Below are positions 848-31,630 of a stretch of DNA of 31,780 bases, piece by piece. Position 1 is the stretch's first letter; the number at the start of each line of letters is the position of its first letter. The position numbers and the translations under genes are program-made. The notes under the pieces are model-generated. The model had not been told where the DNA came from, ran no database searches, and saw only the letters and a list, made by a program, of their open reading frames with translations. Source of the DNA: a virus. The stretch is from positions 1 through 31,780 of IMG/VR virus record IMGVR_UViG_3300038825_001092; one strand, 5' to 3'.

Positions 848-1675
848 TCAACCTCTGGTAGATCTGACTGCCTTTTGAAACAGGCTTTTCGCGTCCTGGT
901 TGTAGGATCTGGGCTTCCCGGTGGTCACGCGCTCGACCGGATTGGCAAAGTATCCGATGCCTCGAGCATAGTCTCGGTGCTTATCCCGGCAGTATTGCCA
1001 GTGATCCTGTAGGATTTTGGCCCATTTCTCCCTGGTCAGGCCGTTCCTGATCCACTGAGACATTACATCGATGTCCCTGTCATTGATAATCCTTGGAGTT
1101 CCAAAGCTTTCAGCAGATCTCAAAAACATTACACAAAACTGTCTAGCCTCATCACTATTAATAGATATACTCTTATCGTTATATGGTTCGTTAGTGTAAC
1201 CTAATGGTGTTACACCCCCTGTAACCTCAGATGTTACACCCCCCTCTGACTTATCCACAGGTGCTTTTGCTTCTGCTTTGAACTGGTTGGCTGCTTGTCT
1301 GCGTCCTTCTTCTACTGTGATCTGTTGCCCGGCTGTCAGGTTTGCCTTGGCTTCTTCGATGTCTTTGGGTGCGTTCTTGAATACGACCTTGAGGGACTTG
1401 GTGGTCTGCCATTTGTTGAGGGCTTTCTCCTCGACCAGGTAACCGTATTCTTTCAGCTTCTTGATTTGCCTGGCAACGGCTGGCCTGGAAACACCTAGCT
1501 CTTGAGCGATCTTTCCCTGGCTTACCCAGGTCACGCCCAGGTAATCTGTGTATGTGCAGATCAATGCCAGGACAGAGAACGCAGAGGTTCCATGCAATCG
1601 ATGATCGCGCACGGCCTCGATCGGCAAGATGCAGTAGTTCCTGAGATCCTTGTTCTTTGCCATTGGTGGCTTCAT
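848..1675 (-). CDS. Winged-helix replication initiator-like protein
   Basis: The protein has 275 residues. The N-terminal 85 or so contain a winged helix-turn-helix, with the recognition part VSQGKIAQELGVSRPAVARQ followed by a wing-like KLKEYGYLVE. A charged Lys/Ala/Glu-rich linker and a C-terminal domain (about 175-260) with aromatic-rich helices follow. This plan matches phage replisome-organiser or O-like initiators, which bind repeats in the origin and recruit the host helicase loader. The middle of the gene (1151-1259) carries origin-like repeats and a DnaA box, as lambda O and its relatives do. It follows RusA with an ATGA overlap. A second possible start lies four codons in, at 1663. 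A transcription factor is the alternative. Confidence 0.6.
   Translation of the reverse strand: MKPPMAKNKDLRNYCILPIEAVRDHRLHGTSAFSVLALICTYTDYLGVTWVSQGKIAQELGVSRPAVARQIKKLKEYGYLVEEKALNKWQTTKSLKVVFKNAPKDIEEAKANLTAGQQITVEEGRRQAANQFKAEAKAPVDKSEGGVTSEVTGGVTPLGYTNEPYNDKSISINSDEARQFCVMFLRSAESFGTPRIINDRDIDVMSQWIRNGLTREKWAKILQDHWQYCRDKHRDYARGIGYFANPVERVTTGKPRSYNQDAKSLFQKAVRSTRG
870..889 (+). terminator. Weak rightward terminator-like hairpin
   Basis: GCCT (870-873) can pair with AGGC (882-885), and TTTT follows at 886-889. It lies about 90 bases after the predicted start of the rightward promoter at 765-794. Together they would define a short antisense RNA over the 3' end of the initiator gene. The stem is only 4 bp, so this is a weak call. 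Confidence 0.25.
1151..1259. other. Candidate replication origin inside the initiator gene
   Basis: Bases 1151-1186 are AT-rich, as in an unwinding element. Two tandem inverted repeats follow: TGTAAC (1195-1200) N8 GTTACA (1209-1214), and TGTAAC (1220-1225) N7 GTTACA (1233-1238). Each is followed by a run of C, so GTTACACCCCC recurs at 1209 and 1233. A perfect DnaA box TTATCCACA lies at 1251-1259. Repeats inside the initiator gene next to an AT-rich tract are the arrangement of lambdoid origins. The repeats also encode two GGVT units, so a purely protein-level repeat cannot be excluded. Confidence 0.55.
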
Positions 1676-2085
1676 TCATCCCACTCCACACTGACCAACA
1701 TGAGCGGATCGCCATACCTTTTCGTAGCAATGATTCGATCAACCTGGGCATCATCTTCGAACACAACGCCGTTAATCGCGTCCAGAGCGATCTTAATCAC
1801 GTTATCGATGTCTGGCCTACCTGGGATCACTTCCCCGCGTGTAGCGGCCTCTCTGCGCTTCTTAGACCATGATTTGGGGATCTCGAACTGTGCCAGGACA
1901 TGCACCCGGCATCTGCCTGTTGCTGGTTCATAGCCCAGATCTTGCATGGCATCGGATGCAGCGGCGGCCAATCGATGTTCGTATTCCTTGGTTTTGGCTG
2001 GGGTGTAAGCCCGGCCTTGCCTGGTGAACCGTGGTCGGCCCTTGCCGATGGGTTGACCCTTTAACCAGAAATCAACCCTGCGCAT
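1672..2085 (-). CDS. rusA: RusA-family Holliday junction resolvase
   Basis: The protein has about 137 residues from the ATG at 2085. A TTG six codons upstream (2103) is an alternative start. Near the N-terminus is the RusA-type GKGRPRFT motif. The catalytic block GRPDIDNVIKIALDAIN is followed by GVVFEDDAQV, giving the D-x-D-N and downstream Asp set of RusA endonucleases. It would cut four-way junctions made by Sak3-mediated recombination and debranch DNA for packaging. It overlaps the upstream RHH gene by 14 bases and the initiator by 4 (ATGA), so the three genes form one translationally linked block. Length is normal for the family. Confidence 0.88.
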   Translation of the reverse strand: MRRVDFWLKGQPIGKGRPRFTRQGRAYTPAKTKEYEHRLAAAASDAMQDLGYEPATGRCRVHVLAQFEIPKSWSKKRREAATRGEVIPGRPDIDNVIKIALDAINGVVFEDDAQVDRIIATKRYGDPLMLVSVEWDE

Positions 2086-2311
2086 TGCGCTCGAGCCAAT
2101 CAATTACATCGATCTGTTCGTCGTGTTCCTGGTATTGAACCTGGGAGATCTGTTGCGGCCTTCCCAGGTAATTATCGATCAACTCGACCAGGACCATTGC
2201 AGCACTTTCACCGCGAGACCTGGCCTCGTTCATCAATCGATCCTTTACTGGCCGGGGCAATCGACAATGAAAAGCTGCAAGGTTTTCAGATACTTGGCGT
2301 TTATTTGGCAT
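2072..2311 (-). CDS. Ribbon-helix-helix (CopG/Arc-like) regulator
   Basis: The protein has 79 residues. The segment AAFHCRLPRPVKDRLMNEAR then SRGESAAMVLVELIDNYL has a short beta strand followed by two helices, the Arc/CopG ribbon-helix-helix plan. The C-terminal 25 residues are acidic and Gln-rich. The ribosome site GAGGAA lies 5 bases before the ATG. It is the first leftward gene next to the divergent promoter hub, so it is the best candidate for binding the paired GATATC palindromes at 2331-2360 and controlling early transcription, including its own. This link is inferred from position. Confidence 0.66.
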   Translation of the reverse strand: MPNKRQVSENLAAFHCRLPRPVKDRLMNEARSRGESAAMVLVELIDNYLGRPQQISQVQYQEHDEQIDVIDWLERNAQG

Positions 2312-9820: not shown

Positions 9821-11794
9821 CTATGCGACTTTGACGATGATCTTTGCACGACCATCATCTTCTATTGCGATTACCTTACCTACAGCTGACATGTATTGTT
9901 CCAGCGTTGGAGAGGATACCGCTTGACCTGTAATACCTGTGCCATCTTGAATAGGAATAATAAAGTCACCGACACTTGCACCTGTGACGTTTACTGGTAC
10001 TTGCCCTGAGAACGCTATACGATCTACAGTTTGTCTTGCTGCCTCAAGTAAATCACCTTCTAAATCAGCACCCCAAGTATCTCCACCCACATAAGAGGGG
10101 TCTGTTGATTTAACAACAAAAGATATTGCATCATCCCATACATTTGTAAGTTTACCATTTACATCAATCCCACAAATGTCACCTTTTTGAATAGTAAAAG
10201 ATGTATTTGTTTTAACCATGTATTCTGCATAGTCTGCACCAGAAGCATTAATAGTTCCACTTGCATTAATGGACCGCCCTGTGCCAGTCACACGCCCACA
10301 AAAGATTGCTGTTGATGAACCGTTCCAACCCTCCGCATTAACAGAACCATCACCTTTTGCAACTATTGATCTATTTCCACCAATGGGGGAAACACTGAAG
10401 TCTGTTGTAGATCGCCAACCACTAGAGTCATAATACATGCGCGGATTACCATTCCCATCAGACAGCACGATATTGCTGCTTGAGGTGCGGATGTCTAGGC
10501 CGCCTTGGTTGCCTGTAAATCCACCAAGGATAGTATTGAATTGACCAGTGGTAACGTCTTTACCGCAGCCATTCGCATAACCTGTTCCAACAAAAGTATT
10601 GCCACGGCCAGTAGTGGCATTTTCCCCTGCCTTAAATCCAACAAAACAAGCATAATCTCCACTGGTCATAGTGGTGCCCGCCTGATGACCTATAGCCACG
10701 TTTTGTGACGAAGTGCTATTTCTTAATGCGCTATCACCCATTGCTACGTTATAGGCCCCCGTAGTGTTTACGCGTAAAGAACTGCCGCCCACCGCTACGT
10801 TAAATGTTCCCGTAGTATTTGACAGCAAGGCACTCTCACCAAAGGCGTGGTTATAATCACCCGTTGTGTTTGCGGTTAGCGCTTGGAAACCGAATGCTGT
10901 TATAGCACCTGTGGTGTTAGAGTATCCCGCTTGATATCCCACGGCTGTGTTGTTGCTTGCGGTGGTGTTGGAGCCTAAAGTAAGATAACCGACAGCCACA
11001 TTACTATTGCCTGTGGTGTTTGAAGACAATGCGTTGCGACCAACTGCCGTGTTGTCTATCCCAGTTGTGTTTGCATAAAGTGCAGCACGACCAACTGCTG
11101 TTAGGCTAGAACCTGTAGTGTTTGTATAAGCCGATAAATACCCGACTGCCGTGTTGTCGGATGCGGTGGTGTTATTTAGAAGTGCATCCGTACCAATCGC
11201 TGTATTGCTGGCTCCTGAAGTTGTTACGCTAAGAGCATTAGCGCCAACAGCCACATTGTCGTGCCCTGTCATTATGGCACCACCACCAGCACCATACCCT
11301 ACTAATGTTGTATCATCAGTTGTTGTTGCAGCATCACCAGCTTTGGAACCTAGTATAGTATTTCTGCTACCTGTGGTAATATCGTGACCAGCTTCATCAC
11401 CGACCGCTACGTTATCTGCTCCAGAAGTATTTGCGTTAAGAGCTTGATAGCCAACCGCAGTATTGTCTGTTGCTGTAGTAGATGTTTCTAATGCACCACT
11501 GCCAACCGCCACATTGTTGCTTGCGGTGGTATTTGCTGTAAGAGCAGCATAGCCGATTGCCACGTTGCCCCCACCTGGGCTTGATCCATCTAAGCTGTCT
11601 AACGCAGTGCTGCCCAGCGCTACGTTGTTCGAGCCAGTGGGATAATTCGCCAGAAGATCAAAGCCGCCAGCCGTGGATCCATCATGGACCCGCAGTCTTT
11701 TGGTTGTAGTATCGTAAGTAAGTTCACCTTGTGCGCCAGTAAAAGCGTCATTGTCTGCTTTATTACCGCGACGAATTTGTACTTGTGTAGCCAT
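9821..11794 (-). CDS. Distal tail fibre with YadA-like repeats and self-cleaving C-terminus
   Basis: The protein has 657 residues. The N-terminus (MATQVQIRRGNKADNDAFTG then GELTYDTTTKRLRVHDGST) is the common fibre-start domain seen in Mtd-like proteins. About residues 50-400 are 16-17-residue repeats of the type NTAVGxxALxxNTTGxxN, like trimeric autotransporter heads. The C-terminal part has ADYAEYM, GDICGIDVNGKL and ISFVVKSTDPSYVGG. It ends AIEDDGRAKIIVKVA, resembling the Peptidase_G2 autoproteolytic trimerisation domain. It should bind the host receptor, attached through the adaptor encoded upstream. Base use is more AT-rich than the neighbouring genes and nearly free of CCWGG, a sign of separate origin. 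Confidence 0.78.
   Translation of the reverse strand: MATQVQIRRGNKADNDAFTGAQGELTYDTTTKRLRVHDGSTAGGFDLLANYPTGSNNVALGSTALDSLDGSSPGGGNVAIGYAALTANTTASNNVAVGSGALETSTTATDNTAVGYQALNANTSGADNVAVGDEAGHDITTGSRNTILGSKAGDAATTTDDTTLVGYGAGGGAIMTGHDNVAVGANALSVTTSGASNTAIGTDALLNNTTASDNTAVGYLSAYTNTTGSSLTAVGRAALYANTTGIDNTAVGRNALSSNTTGNSNVAVGYLTLGSNTTASNNTAVGYQAGYSNTTGAITAFGFQALTANTTGDYNHAFGESALLSNTTGTFNVAVGGSSLRVNTTGAYNVAMGDSALRNSTSSQNVAIGHQAGTTMTSGDYACFVGFKAGENATTGRGNTFVGTGYANGCGKDVTTGQFNTILGGFTGNQGGLDIRTSSSNIVLSDGNGNPRMYYDSSGWRSTTDFSVSPIGGNRSIVAKGDGSVNAEGWNGSSTAIFCGRVTGTGRSINASGTINASGADYAEYMVKTNTSFTIQKGDICGIDVNGKLTNVWDDAISFVVKSTDPSYVGGDTWGADLEGDLLEAARQTVDRIAFSGQVPVNVTGASVGDFIIPIQDGTGITGQAVSSPTLEQYMSAVGKVIAIEDDGRAKIIVKVA
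10680..11560 (-). repeat. Fibre repeat array, about 51-bp units
   Basis: The DNA encodes about 17 degenerate copies of a 16-17-residue unit (AVG..AL..NTTG..N). The units are similar but not identical, so the array has diverged at DNA level. Unit number could still change by slippage or recombination. Confidence 0.75.
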
Positions 11795-25918: not shown

Positions 25919-26689
25919 CTAGCTGTTGGCCGCTGCCCATTGTTGTTCGATCTTCGTGCGCCATACAGGATCACTCTGCCATCGAGGGTCTGCGATAGCC
26001 TGGCGAAGGTCTTGGACATTCATCTCAGGGGTCGCAACAACTGGCTCTGTCGGGATGCCTTCGTTAGTATATCCTTGGATAAACTTGACCATTGCATTGA
26101 TGCTATCGGCATTATTTAGGCTCAGTGCCAGGGCATTACGTTCTGCCTGGTTAAGAGCTGCCTTTGTAATATGGCGCTCCAGGTAAGTAATTTTTTCCTG
26201 GGCCTTTGATCCAAGTTTTTGCATTTCCTGTTGTTGGTCATACTGCATGGCTTGCTCTTGTTCCCCGGTCATTTCCAGGATGTTGCCAGCCAATTCCTCA
26301 AACGCCTGTTGAGATATGCCATATTTCTGCGCCCACTCCTGATACGCCTGGACAGTCGGATCTTCCAGATCGAGACCTCGATCAACCAAATCCTCCATGT
26401 TGTAGCCATCTTCCGGAGCCTTATGCTTCCCGGCTTTGAAGGCTTTTTCCAATTCGGCATAGCTCTTTGCAAGTTTTTCGACATCGGGTCCATCCTCATC
26501 CCAAAATTTCTGTGGATAATAATCAGGCCGCTCTAACGGCTCATCATCATCAACATCGTTAAAGGATGCATCCTCTTGCGGTTCATGGACCGGAATGGGA
26601 GCTTCTTCTTGCGTTGGCGCTTCTTGCTGTTGTTGAAAGCTGACAAGCCCTTCCTGGGGCGCTTCTGCTACTTGTGTTTCATCAGACAT
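25919..26689 (-). CDS. Capsid scaffold protein
   Basis: The protein has 256 residues. The first 60 are strongly acidic and Gln/Glu/Pro-rich (EAPTQEEAPIPVHEPQEDAS), followed by PDYYPQKFWDEDGPDVEKLA, a conserved-looking segment of podovirus scaffolds. The rest is helical and Gln-rich, ending DPVWRTKIEQQWAAANS. Acidic helical proteins just before the capsid gene are the usual scaffolds (T7 gp9 class), lost from the mature head. It overlaps the previous gene by 8 bases. Confidence 0.82.
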   Translation of the reverse strand: MSDETQVAEAPQEGLVSFQQQQEAPTQEEAPIPVHEPQEDASFNDVDDDEPLERPDYYPQKFWDEDGPDVEKLAKSYAELEKAFKAGKHKAPEDGYNMEDLVDRGLDLEDPTVQAYQEWAQKYGISQQAFEELAGNILEMTGEQEQAMQYDQQQEMQKLGSKAQEKITYLERHITKAALNQAERNALALSLNNADSINAMVKFIQGYTNEGIPTEPVVATPEMNVQDLRQAIADPRWQSDPVWRTKIEQQWAAANS

Positions 26690-29613: not shown

Positions 29614-30095
29614 TACTTGAACCTCGCCATAGAATAATAGTCGGCCCCCTCTGGGCCAAACTTCCTTAATTTGCACTCTACCTCAAAATATAGTGCTTTG
29701 GCAAACCTTAACGCTACCATATGTTGATCTTTTACATAAATCTGCATTCTAGCGATATCGTAGTCCTCAAAAGCCTGGGCAAGGGTAGCTCTAGCTCCGA
29801 CCAAAGTTGTCCTGGCGTGGTTCTCTAATCCTTCGCCTGGAATAAACCAACACTCGACCATGTGCGGCCAGATCTGTCGGATGCCATAACAGGCCACAAC
29901 CTTGCCTCGACCGATTGCTGTCCAGGACCAGCCATGTTCTGAAATGTCATAGATATAATCCCGGTATCCTGGAATTACGCGCTCATACTCTTGTTCATGC
30001 GGCCCCAGCTTTAACATAAACAAATGTTCATATTGCAGCGGCACTATCTGTTCATCGGGCCGGGTTTGGAAGGTTGGGAGCTGAATTAGTGCCAT
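29613..30095 (-). CDS. GNAT-like protein of the T7 gp13/DUF2833 type
   Basis: The protein has 160 residues. The central part SWTAIGRGKVVACYGIRQIW leads to PHMVECWFIPGEGLENHART. A helix (VGARATLAQAFEDYDIARMQ) and FAKALYFEVECKLRKFGPEG follow. The strand-strand-helix-strand order and the late F-A-x-x-L-[YG]-F resemble GNAT acetyltransferases. Phage gp13/DUF2833 proteins show the same plan and aid virion morphogenesis or internal-core assembly. The acetyl-CoA loop is not obvious, so it may be inactive. It starts within the terL stop (TGATG). Confidence 0.65.
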   Translation of the reverse strand: MALIQLPTFQTRPDEQIVPLQYEHLFMLKLGPHEQEYERVIPGYRDYIYDISEHGWSWTAIGRGKVVACYGIRQIWPHMVECWFIPGEGLENHARTTLVGARATLAQAFEDYDIARMQIYVKDQHMVALRFAKALYFEVECKLRKFGPEGADYYSMARFK

Positions 30096-31630
30096 CAGAA
30101 GATATTAAAGTCTGTATTTGCTGTGAGAGCCGGACCCTGGGCAAATCCGCTGCCATAAGTTCCCCGGCGCAATCGACGTTGCTCTCCGCCGCCCAGCATC
30201 AGATATCCGAACGCATCCCCGCAGTGTGAGTGTTCGTTCTTTACTGGCGCGTCCTTGAATCGTTCTTGCCCGGCGCCCAGGGATTGGCGCTTGAAGAAAT
30301 AGCCACCGCTCAGAGATTTACGCAGACGAATACACTTTTTGCTAACCATTAGCCCAGGTTTCGAGTTTACCAGGCGCGACATCGGCCCGGCACCAGCTTC
30401 CCGGCGTACCTGGAAGGCGTTACTTTCTGTCGGCTGGGCTTTGAATCCGATCGATCGAAGGTGATCGAAGGCCGTAACTTCATAGATCTCGTCGCGTTTA
30501 TTACCCGCAGGGTCGCCCCAAATCATTATTTCATGCTTAGAATATCGCTCTGCAATCCTACCCAGGAGTTCCTGGCCAAATCTTTCCAGGCCCATATCGA
30601 ACGTCACAAGCTCATCGATGATCCGCCAAGATCCCGCCGTTGTGCGCTGCCCAAAGATCGCAGCCGGGGTTAAACCAAAGTCAACACCTATCTGTATCGG
30701 ATAATACGGATCTACCTCGACATCCCCAGACATAAGCTCATCATCATACTCTGGCCATACGGGACGCCCCTCTTGGACAAATGTGTACATGCCTTGCGCA
30801 TAACACCTGATCCAATCGGCATTCTTACCGCCAAGTAGCTGTTGATAGTATCCAGGCGGCAAATTGTTGCTGTTTTCCGCGTTGGGATTAACTTGCCACC
30901 ATTTACCACCAGAGAATACAAATCCTTGCGCATCCGGGTTCTCCTTTGGGATATCTTCTTTCTTGGGAAGTATTACACCGCCAGGCTGTCGAAAGAATGA
31001 CCAGGCAAATTTCCCAGTAATAGGATTTTTCTCTGCAAGCTCATGCCACCAGTGATCGCTATCCGGCGGGTTGGTATCCATCCAGATCCCGTACCAGGTG
31101 GGGCCGCCATCGGATTTTGTGGGATATCGCCCGACCCGGTGCGTCAATCCGTCAATAACTGCCTTGGGAAGCTCTCGAGCCTCGTTCACCCAGGCGCCCG
31201 TAAGTTCCAGGGACAACAGTTTCCGCACATCTTGCGGCGAAGAAAGCGCCATGAAGATAACTTCACAATCAATCCCAGGGATATCACCCCGCGTAGGAAT
31301 ACGAATGTGGTGCGAAATCGGCGGCTGCCAGCGCATCGATCCCCAGGTATCCTCGGGAAATAGCTCTTGCCAGGTCTTAATGGTGGTCGTGCGCAGCTCG
31401 GGATATGTATTACGAACGATAACAAATCGGGAATAGCGGATACCGTCGCGCGGGCTAGGTTGTTGCCTCACTGCCCTAAGCATTATCTCGGCTGCACAGC
31501 CATAGGATTTACCCGAACCAACCGGACCCATCAACCCCCTAACGAAGCTATCGTCATGTAAAAACTTCCAAACAGTCGGACTGTTCTCAAAGTTCAAATC
31601 AAGGCTGGGGATCTCTGACATATTCACCAT
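30095..31630 (-). CDS. terL: Terminase large subunit
   Basis: The protein has 511 residues. The ATPase domain has Walker A GPVGSGKS (about 35-42), and Walker B-like LELTGAWVNEARELP with the catalytic Glu near 150. The coupling motif is MDTNPPD near 185. The nuclease domain has IGVDFGLTPA near 315, WGDPAGNKRDE near 370 and HCGDAFGYLML near 470, supplying the acidic metal ligands. It pumps and cuts concatemeric DNA at the portal. A start at 31621 is also possible. It overlaps a small coiled-coil gene that separates it from terS. Confidence 0.93.
   Translation of the reverse strand: MVNMSEIPSLDLNFENSPTVWKFLHDDSFVRGLMGPVGSGKSYGCAAEIMLRAVRQQPSPRDGIRYSRFVIVRNTYPELRTTTIKTWQELFPEDTWGSMRWQPPISHHIRIPTRGDIPGIDCEVIFMALSSPQDVRKLLSLELTGAWVNEARELPKAVIDGLTHRVGRYPTKSDGGPTWYGIWMDTNPPDSDHWWHELAEKNPITGKFAWSFFRQPGGVILPKKEDIPKENPDAQGFVFSGGKWWQVNPNAENSNNLPPGYYQQLLGGKNADWIRCYAQGMYTFVQEGRPVWPEYDDELMSGDVEVDPYYPIQIGVDFGLTPAAIFGQRTTAGSWRIIDELVTFDMGLERFGQELLGRIAERYSKHEIMIWGDPAGNKRDEIYEVTAFDHLRSIGFKAQPTESNAFQVRREAGAGPMSRLVNSKPGLMVSKKCIRLRKSLSGGYFFKRQSLGAGQERFKDAPVKNEHSHCGDAFGYLMLGGGEQRRLRRGTYGSGFAQGPALTANTDFNIF

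Follow-up and report, generated by a model that had tools for sequence, protein, structure and literature searches.

The initiator gene and its neighbourhood

The DNA analysed here, referred to as the window, is the whole 31,780 bases of the IMG/VR contig IMGVR_UViG_3300038825_001092, which is classed as linear and may be a fragment. Near its left end the minus strand carries an open reading frame (ORF) of 275 amino acids (848-1675), treated here as a replication initiator gene. It contains an HTH_36 winged-helix domain (Pfam, E 6e-9) and matches the PHROG 'replication initiation O-like' families, the best being phrog_678 (E 2.5e-8, aa 39-173), both kinds of match being weak. No match to Pfam Phage_rep_O was found in this ORF and none to Rep_3/RepA, the protein having a single winged helix of the HTH_36 type. 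The protein is laid out as a winged-helix domain (approximately aa 14-100), a linker whose codons hold the candidate origin and a C-terminal domain (approximately aa 174-275). An AlphaFold2 model places a helix at residues 64-76, after Ser63, with a local confidence of ~70-76; mean pLDDT was only 52.8. The model is poor outside the winged helix and allows no judgement on contacts or on the C-terminal domain; its matches in the PDB are MarR-like regulators. Searching the PDB by sequence gave no significant relative, the best hit (E 0.0099) being a DeoR-type regulator that shares the SRP motif.

The genes beside the initiator encode RusA (1672-2103), an Arc-like protein, a Gam/Gp157-like protein and a Sak-type annealing protein, and there is a small ORF without assignment at 364-621. 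An earlier note, made without database searches, had described the virion genes as T7-like. They match podovirus head-tail and tail proteins (PHROG). Among the early ORFs scanned with Pfam and PHROG no DNA polymerase, helicase, primase or RNA polymerase was recognised. The T7-like replication set of phage RNA polymerase, DNA polymerase and primase-helicase was thus not recognised there; a single-strand annealing protein, a Gam-like protein and RusA were found instead. This absence has to be qualified by the possibility that the record is a fragment. No P-like helicase-loader gene was recognised adjoining the initiator, whose neighbours are RusA and the small ORF. The only cultured relative found by tblastn of the initiator against 50,697 phage records was Methylophilales phage MEP301, which has a podovirus-like genome.

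The ORF at the left end (1-366) runs off the contig where MEP301 has its small terminase, and has no PHROG match; the large terminase (30095-31630) closes the right side. It is possible that the contig is a circularly permuted genome opened in the packaging region.

Parts of the candidate origin

The earlier note had placed an AT-rich tract, two tandem inverted repeats each followed by a run of five or six C residues, and a perfect DnaA box between positions 1151 and 1259, inside a winged-helix initiator-like gene, and all of these were found exactly as described. The AT-rich tract (1151-1186), a candidate DNA unwinding element, is 75% AT, a level reached by 0.3% of the 36-nt windows of the record. 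It is followed by iteron 2, TGTAAC-N8-GTTACA (1195-1214), and, 5 nt further on, by iteron 1, TGTAAC-N7-GTTACA (1220-1238), which is the one nearest the DnaA box. The C-runs lie at 1215-1219 (C5) and 1239-1244 (C6). The box, TTATCCACA, occupies 1251-1259 on the plus strand and reads TGTGGATAA on the coding strand, on which the order of elements is DnaA box, iterons, AT tract. The repeats sit mid-gene, ~440 nt from the initiator start codon. The codons of the recognition helix (1452-1489, minus strand; aa 63-75, SRPAVARQIKKLK) lie ~250 nt from the origin, and include those for Arg64 and Pro65 (codon CCA), the two residues that covary with bases 2 and 3 of the half-site.

Repeats of the form TGTAAC-N6-9-GTTACA occur nowhere else in the 31,780-base record, and a control pattern gave none. 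A second perfect TTATCCACA is present in the window only at 26511-26519 (minus strand), where it stands alone inside ORF 25919-26689. Cumulative GC skew, which had been put forward as a check on the origin, was uninformative, neither for nor against, because in this record skew follows gene orientation and cannot serve as an origin test.

Conservation of the candidate origin as DNA

Twelve relatives from IMG/VR, sharing 71-93% identity, were codon-aligned with the window. The perfect DnaA box TGTGGATAA is kept in all twelve, though the surrounding linker varies in both length and sequence, and one relative (L014) has two tandem boxes 12 nt apart. Both inverted repeats are likewise recognisable in 12/12, one of them being imperfect in L010. 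Four of these relatives (L005-L008) carry TGCAAC..GTTGCA, or TGAAAC..GTTGCA, in place of TGTAAC..GTTACA, and in two (L007 and L008) the first repeat is read in a different frame from that of the window.

Synonymous divergence, computed per codon and corrected for the amino acid, was 0.38 of that expected over aa 139-195 (1091-1261) versus 1.17 in the rest of the gene. Across this block the ratio ranged from 0.2 to 0.5, the lowest 15-codon windows falling to ~0.21. Selection therefore acts here on the DNA, over and above the protein. The whole DNA-constrained block, 1091-1261, constitutes the minimal origin candidate, and is longer than the 1151-1259 originally proposed. It had been stated that loss of the repeats and box in relatives that keep the protein would refute the origin; the outcome was the opposite, with repeats, box and AT tract all conserved as DNA in close relatives, the repeats being kept at synonymous sites and also across reading frames. 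The C-runs are not conserved in relatives (L010-L012) and were rejected as a component of the site.

The wider family of initiators

Further relatives were sought in two ways. A protein search was restricted to residues 1-62 and, because the query stopped before the recognition helix, it was blind to both helix and repeat; it yielded 80 loci unbiased for either trait. A DNA pattern in which base 3 of the half-site was left free was also scanned through IMG/VR and the GTDB genomes. Matches with 7,8 and 8,8 spacings were mostly initiator genes and, repeat-rich surface proteins aside, the matches were initiators of the same family carrying the repeats within their own genes. The protein search found no prophage relatives in GTDB; the DNA pattern gave 14 loci there, of which L120, L122 and L130 are winged-helix initiators by profile and L132 is a truncated ORF that also contains these repeats. 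Among the matches with 7,7 spacing many were repeat-rich tail or surface proteins with motifs such as VTGNVTG and VTPSVTP (L054, L055, L062, L066, L116 and L118). These were set aside as chance matches arising through codon composition, and represent a trap for origin searches based on pattern only.

A total of 71 distinct proteins were collected, 62 of which have TGNAAC-type repeats in the gene, with two to four iteron copies per gene. The distance between successive repeats was most often 5 nt (44 of 92 gaps), and in 23 of the 62 genes the repeats fall in more than one reading frame. The 60 nt following the last repeat were more AT-rich than the gene in 60/62, typically lying near the gene maximum (median rank 0.7%). 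A perfect DnaA box was present 20-66 nt before the first repeat in 27/62, against an expectation of 0.05 from base shuffling of the same stretches. These boxes always have one orientation, number from one to three and are often in tandem at 12-nt steps. No perfect box was found in the 160 nt before the iterons in the other 35 genes. At one locus (L026, 4344-4436), and also in L033, TGCAAC-type repeats were seen just downstream of the initiator gene and not inside it. The helix of both has Gln, as the correspondence between residue and base described below predicts.

Covariation of the recognition helix and the repeats

Residue 65 of the helix and base 3 of the half-site were found to vary together. 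The 24 genes with Pro65 have TGTAAC half-sites, base 3 being T in 131 of 132; L009, for example, reads SRPAVARQ and has TGTAAC. In 38 genes with Gln65 base 3 is C (135) or A (41) and never T, all 176 half-sites being TGCAAC or TGAAAC. In a phylogeny for which the helix residue and the linker encoding the repeats had been masked, there are six changes of residue and six of base, in every case together. Five out of five independent pairs on the starred branches agree (sign test, p = 0.0625), and with only five such pairs the p value cannot go lower. Half-site positions 2 and 3 were picked after the first alignment, and the later searches that supplied most of the genes were blind to them.

The clearest single comparison pairs the window with L005, its sister at 93% identity. 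Only four differences separate them across a 72-nt block spanning both repeats, and in each of the four half-sites the position that differs is base 3 or its dyad mate; the Pro65 codon CCA of the window is the Gln codon CAA in L005. All four differences are nonsynonymous (Val to Ala, Thr to Ala, Val to Glu and Tyr to Cys). It is possible that some of the joint switches of helix and repeat reflect recombination of the pair, given the ~250 nt between them.

A second search began from the MEP301-like branch, again upstream of the helix only, and 80 of 281 candidates were kept. The MEP301 protein itself is homologous in its N-terminal domain, but its gene is without repeats of this kind. Among genes of this branch with at least two scorable repeats, Arg64 occurs with G and Gln64 with A at base 2 without exception. 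Lys64 accompanies T at base 2 in two close relatives (SKQ) and A in one (TKQ); its preference is unsettled, and a pairing of Lys with T in one lineage is no more than a possibility. On the tree for residue 64, which was built on few columns, there are five changes each in residue and base, only two independent pairs being starred, and fewer events stand behind residue 64 than behind residue 65.

Helices with TNQ at 68-70 pair with a different repeat, GGACAC-N6-GTGTCC (L204, L206, L207, L217, L265 and L266). Comparison of the close relatives L206 and L205/L209 shows the repeat type swapped while the layout, in which a DnaA box lies between the repeats, is unchanged. The L204/L205 branch has the box too, in either orientation. 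Related genes with SRQNITNQ had no scorable repeat and may carry yet another site.

A proposed origin and recognition code

Taken as a whole, it is very likely that 1091-1261 is the phage's replication origin, lying within the gene for its own initiator, with the start of replication there being inferred from sequence. What the sequence data show directly is that the parts are present, conserved as DNA and fixed in order, and that the helix covaries with the repeats. The covariation ties the initiator to these sites, and supports binding without any binding data to confirm it. Dimer formation, the action of DnaA, melting of the AT tract and the start of replication are similarly inferences for which there are no binding, melting or replication data. 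In the proposed scheme the initiator, probably as a dimer, would bind each perfect inverted repeat through its winged-helix domain; within the half-site T-G-T-A-A-C, Arg64 would read the G at base 2 and Pro65 the T at base 3. Host DnaA would probably bind the box adjoining the iterons, and the two proteins together would open the AT-rich tract on the far side of the repeats, to which the host helicase and replisome would be brought. Use of the host replisome fits the data because no polymerase or helicase was recognised among the early ORFs scanned. A need for host DnaA is inferred; perfect boxes are universal in the window's clade and occur in 27/62 of the wider family. The view that the phage replicates through its own initiator plus host DnaA, from a lambda-like intragenic origin, is in this way supported, with both the start at this site and the DnaA requirement remaining inference.

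Arginine with G and glutamine with A are common base contacts. That Pro65 reads the T of the half-site is inferred from sequence alone, with no binding data. There is a structural precedent in the iron-dependent transcription repressors IdeR/DtxR, which share an S-x-P motif at the start of the recognition helix; in IdeR, Pro39 is in van der Waals contact with the position-3 thymine of the repeat, although the same study regards indirect readout as decisive for binding (PMC8464063). The correspondence of Pro39 to Pro65 is an analogy that rests on the motif and a weak Pfam alignment only, with no solved structure.

A bolder reading, which is considered likely, is that these initiator genes are self-contained lock-and-key pairs in which residue 64 determines base 2 (Arg-G, Gln-A and, in one lineage, Lys-T) and residue 65 determines base 3 (Pro-T, Gln-C or A). 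A single codon change in the helix, matched by symmetric point mutations in all the half-sites, would create a new origin specificity and hence mutually compatible replicons, even where those mutations alter amino acids of the very protein whose gene contains the sites. The code appears to be new, no report having been found in the open-access literature searched, and the claim is provisional with respect to papers that the search did not cover.

Comparison with known systems

The architecture is known from lambda. In lambdoid phages, including the Stx phages P27 and 933W, the origin lies in the middle of the O gene and consists of iterons and an AT region, extra iterons adding extra residues to O (PMC7466680). 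The present system shares the position of the origin within the initiator gene, dyad iterons followed by an AT-rich region, extra iterons appearing as extra linker residues and, by inference here, recruitment of the host helicase. It differs in that no close sequence relationship to lambdoid O was found beyond the weak PHROG profile matches, in that the iterons are short perfect 6+6 palindromes with 7-8 nt spacers in two to four copies with a DnaA box beside them, and in that a separate P-like loader was not recognised in the window.

Iteron plasmids with DnaA boxes (the pSC101, P1 and RK2 class; PMC4980987) also combine iterons, one or more DnaA boxes, an AT-rich unwinding element and a winged-helix initiator, whereas the origin described here lies within a coding sequence and has inverted in place of direct repeats. 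A precedent for covariation is provided by the PLE satellites of Vibrio cholerae, in which the DNA-binding domain of RepA_N varies with the iterons among variants and cognate pairing is needed for replication (PMC8263062). There, however, the exchange involves entire domains, the origin lies between genes and the DNA-binding domain is of a different family, whereas here one or two helix residues follow one or two bases. What is particular to the present system is the combination of a lambda-like layout, a plasmid-like DnaA box by the iterons, short perfect palindromes and a simple code.

Alternative explanations

The alternative that survives best, which is nonetheless unlikely, is an origin that does without DnaA, at which, as on the simplest view of lambda, the initiator melts the AT tract by itself and TGTGGATAA has some other use. 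The lack of a perfect box in the 160 nt before the iterons in 35/62 family members is in its favour. Against it, the box persists in an otherwise hypervariable linker in 12/12 members of the window's clade, other clades carry one to three boxes at 12-nt steps in a single orientation, and the L204/L205 branch also has the box, in either orientation.

It could also be argued that the repeats are not an origin but operators, at which the protein would act as a repressor of its own gene or operon. Repressors share this anatomy of a winged-helix protein on inverted repeats, and the structural model matches MarR-like regulators in the PDB. The sites are, however, mid-gene, ~440 nt from the start codon and not at a promoter, they are accompanied on fixed sides by a DnaA box and an AT-rich tract, and the PHROG matches point to replication initiators. 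This explanation is very unlikely, although autoregulation as a side effect of an initiator acting at its origin remains possible.

A third explanation is that selection acts on the protein, the linker being a flexible amino-acid repeat (GGVTSEV..GGVT) whose codons form inverted repeats by chance. The tail proteins with VTGNVTG-type repeats, which match the same DNA pattern by codon accident, show that this can happen. Here it is highly improbable: the residues vary (VTSEVT, ATSEVA, GETSDVA, QPLEVA) while the dyad symmetry stays, more than one reading frame is used in 23/62 genes, all four differences between the window and L005 in the block are nonsynonymous and symmetric, and the same repeats lie downstream of the gene in L026.

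A partition (centromere-like) site or a packaging (pac/cos) site is almost as improbable. Clusters of inverted repeats can make up either kind of site, pac sites are often located in small terminase genes, and an ORF that is possibly a small terminase is nearby at the left end. The repeats are, however, inside the initiator gene and not a terminase gene, it is the initiator that covaries with them, the ORFs scanned yielded no parA-like ATPase, and DnaA boxes and an AT tract would not be expected at such sites. A transcription terminator was rejected, the stems being G+C-poor and having no T-runs after the repeats.

Implications

For the origin reading, one consequence is that, with one amino acid tracking one base across ~60 relatives, either can be read from the other. 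With initiator and site in one gene each metagenomic copy is a matched protein-DNA pair, and over a hundred distinct genes have been read in this way. Phages known only from metagenomes rarely offer an experimental handle on their replication; here the origins of uncultured phages can be located from sequence, and a concrete and testable specificity code is obtained for a family of environmental phage initiators. The family also provides a case in which selection on a DNA site dictates part of the amino-acid sequence of a protein, and a natural system for the joint change of initiator and origin specificity without function being lost on the way.

Other features of the record

Three further features of the record were seen. 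The minus-strand ORF at 9821-11794 (657 aa) has many GxNNVAxGxxALxxNTT-type repeats resembling the head repeats of trimeric adhesins, and is likely to encode a receptor-binding or fibre protein. Between the Arc-like ORF (2072-2311, minus strand) and the plus-strand genes that begin at ~2407 are TAGTGATATCGCT (2329-2341) and TAGAGATATCGCT (2348-2360), 19 nt apart, a pair that resembles, and might conceivably be, an operator for a repressor acting on a divergent promoter. Downstream of the initiator gene, in the intergenic DNA at 693-730 and 768-789, there are G-runs and an imperfect palindrome, ACGATGTTAGCGCTAATAACGT.
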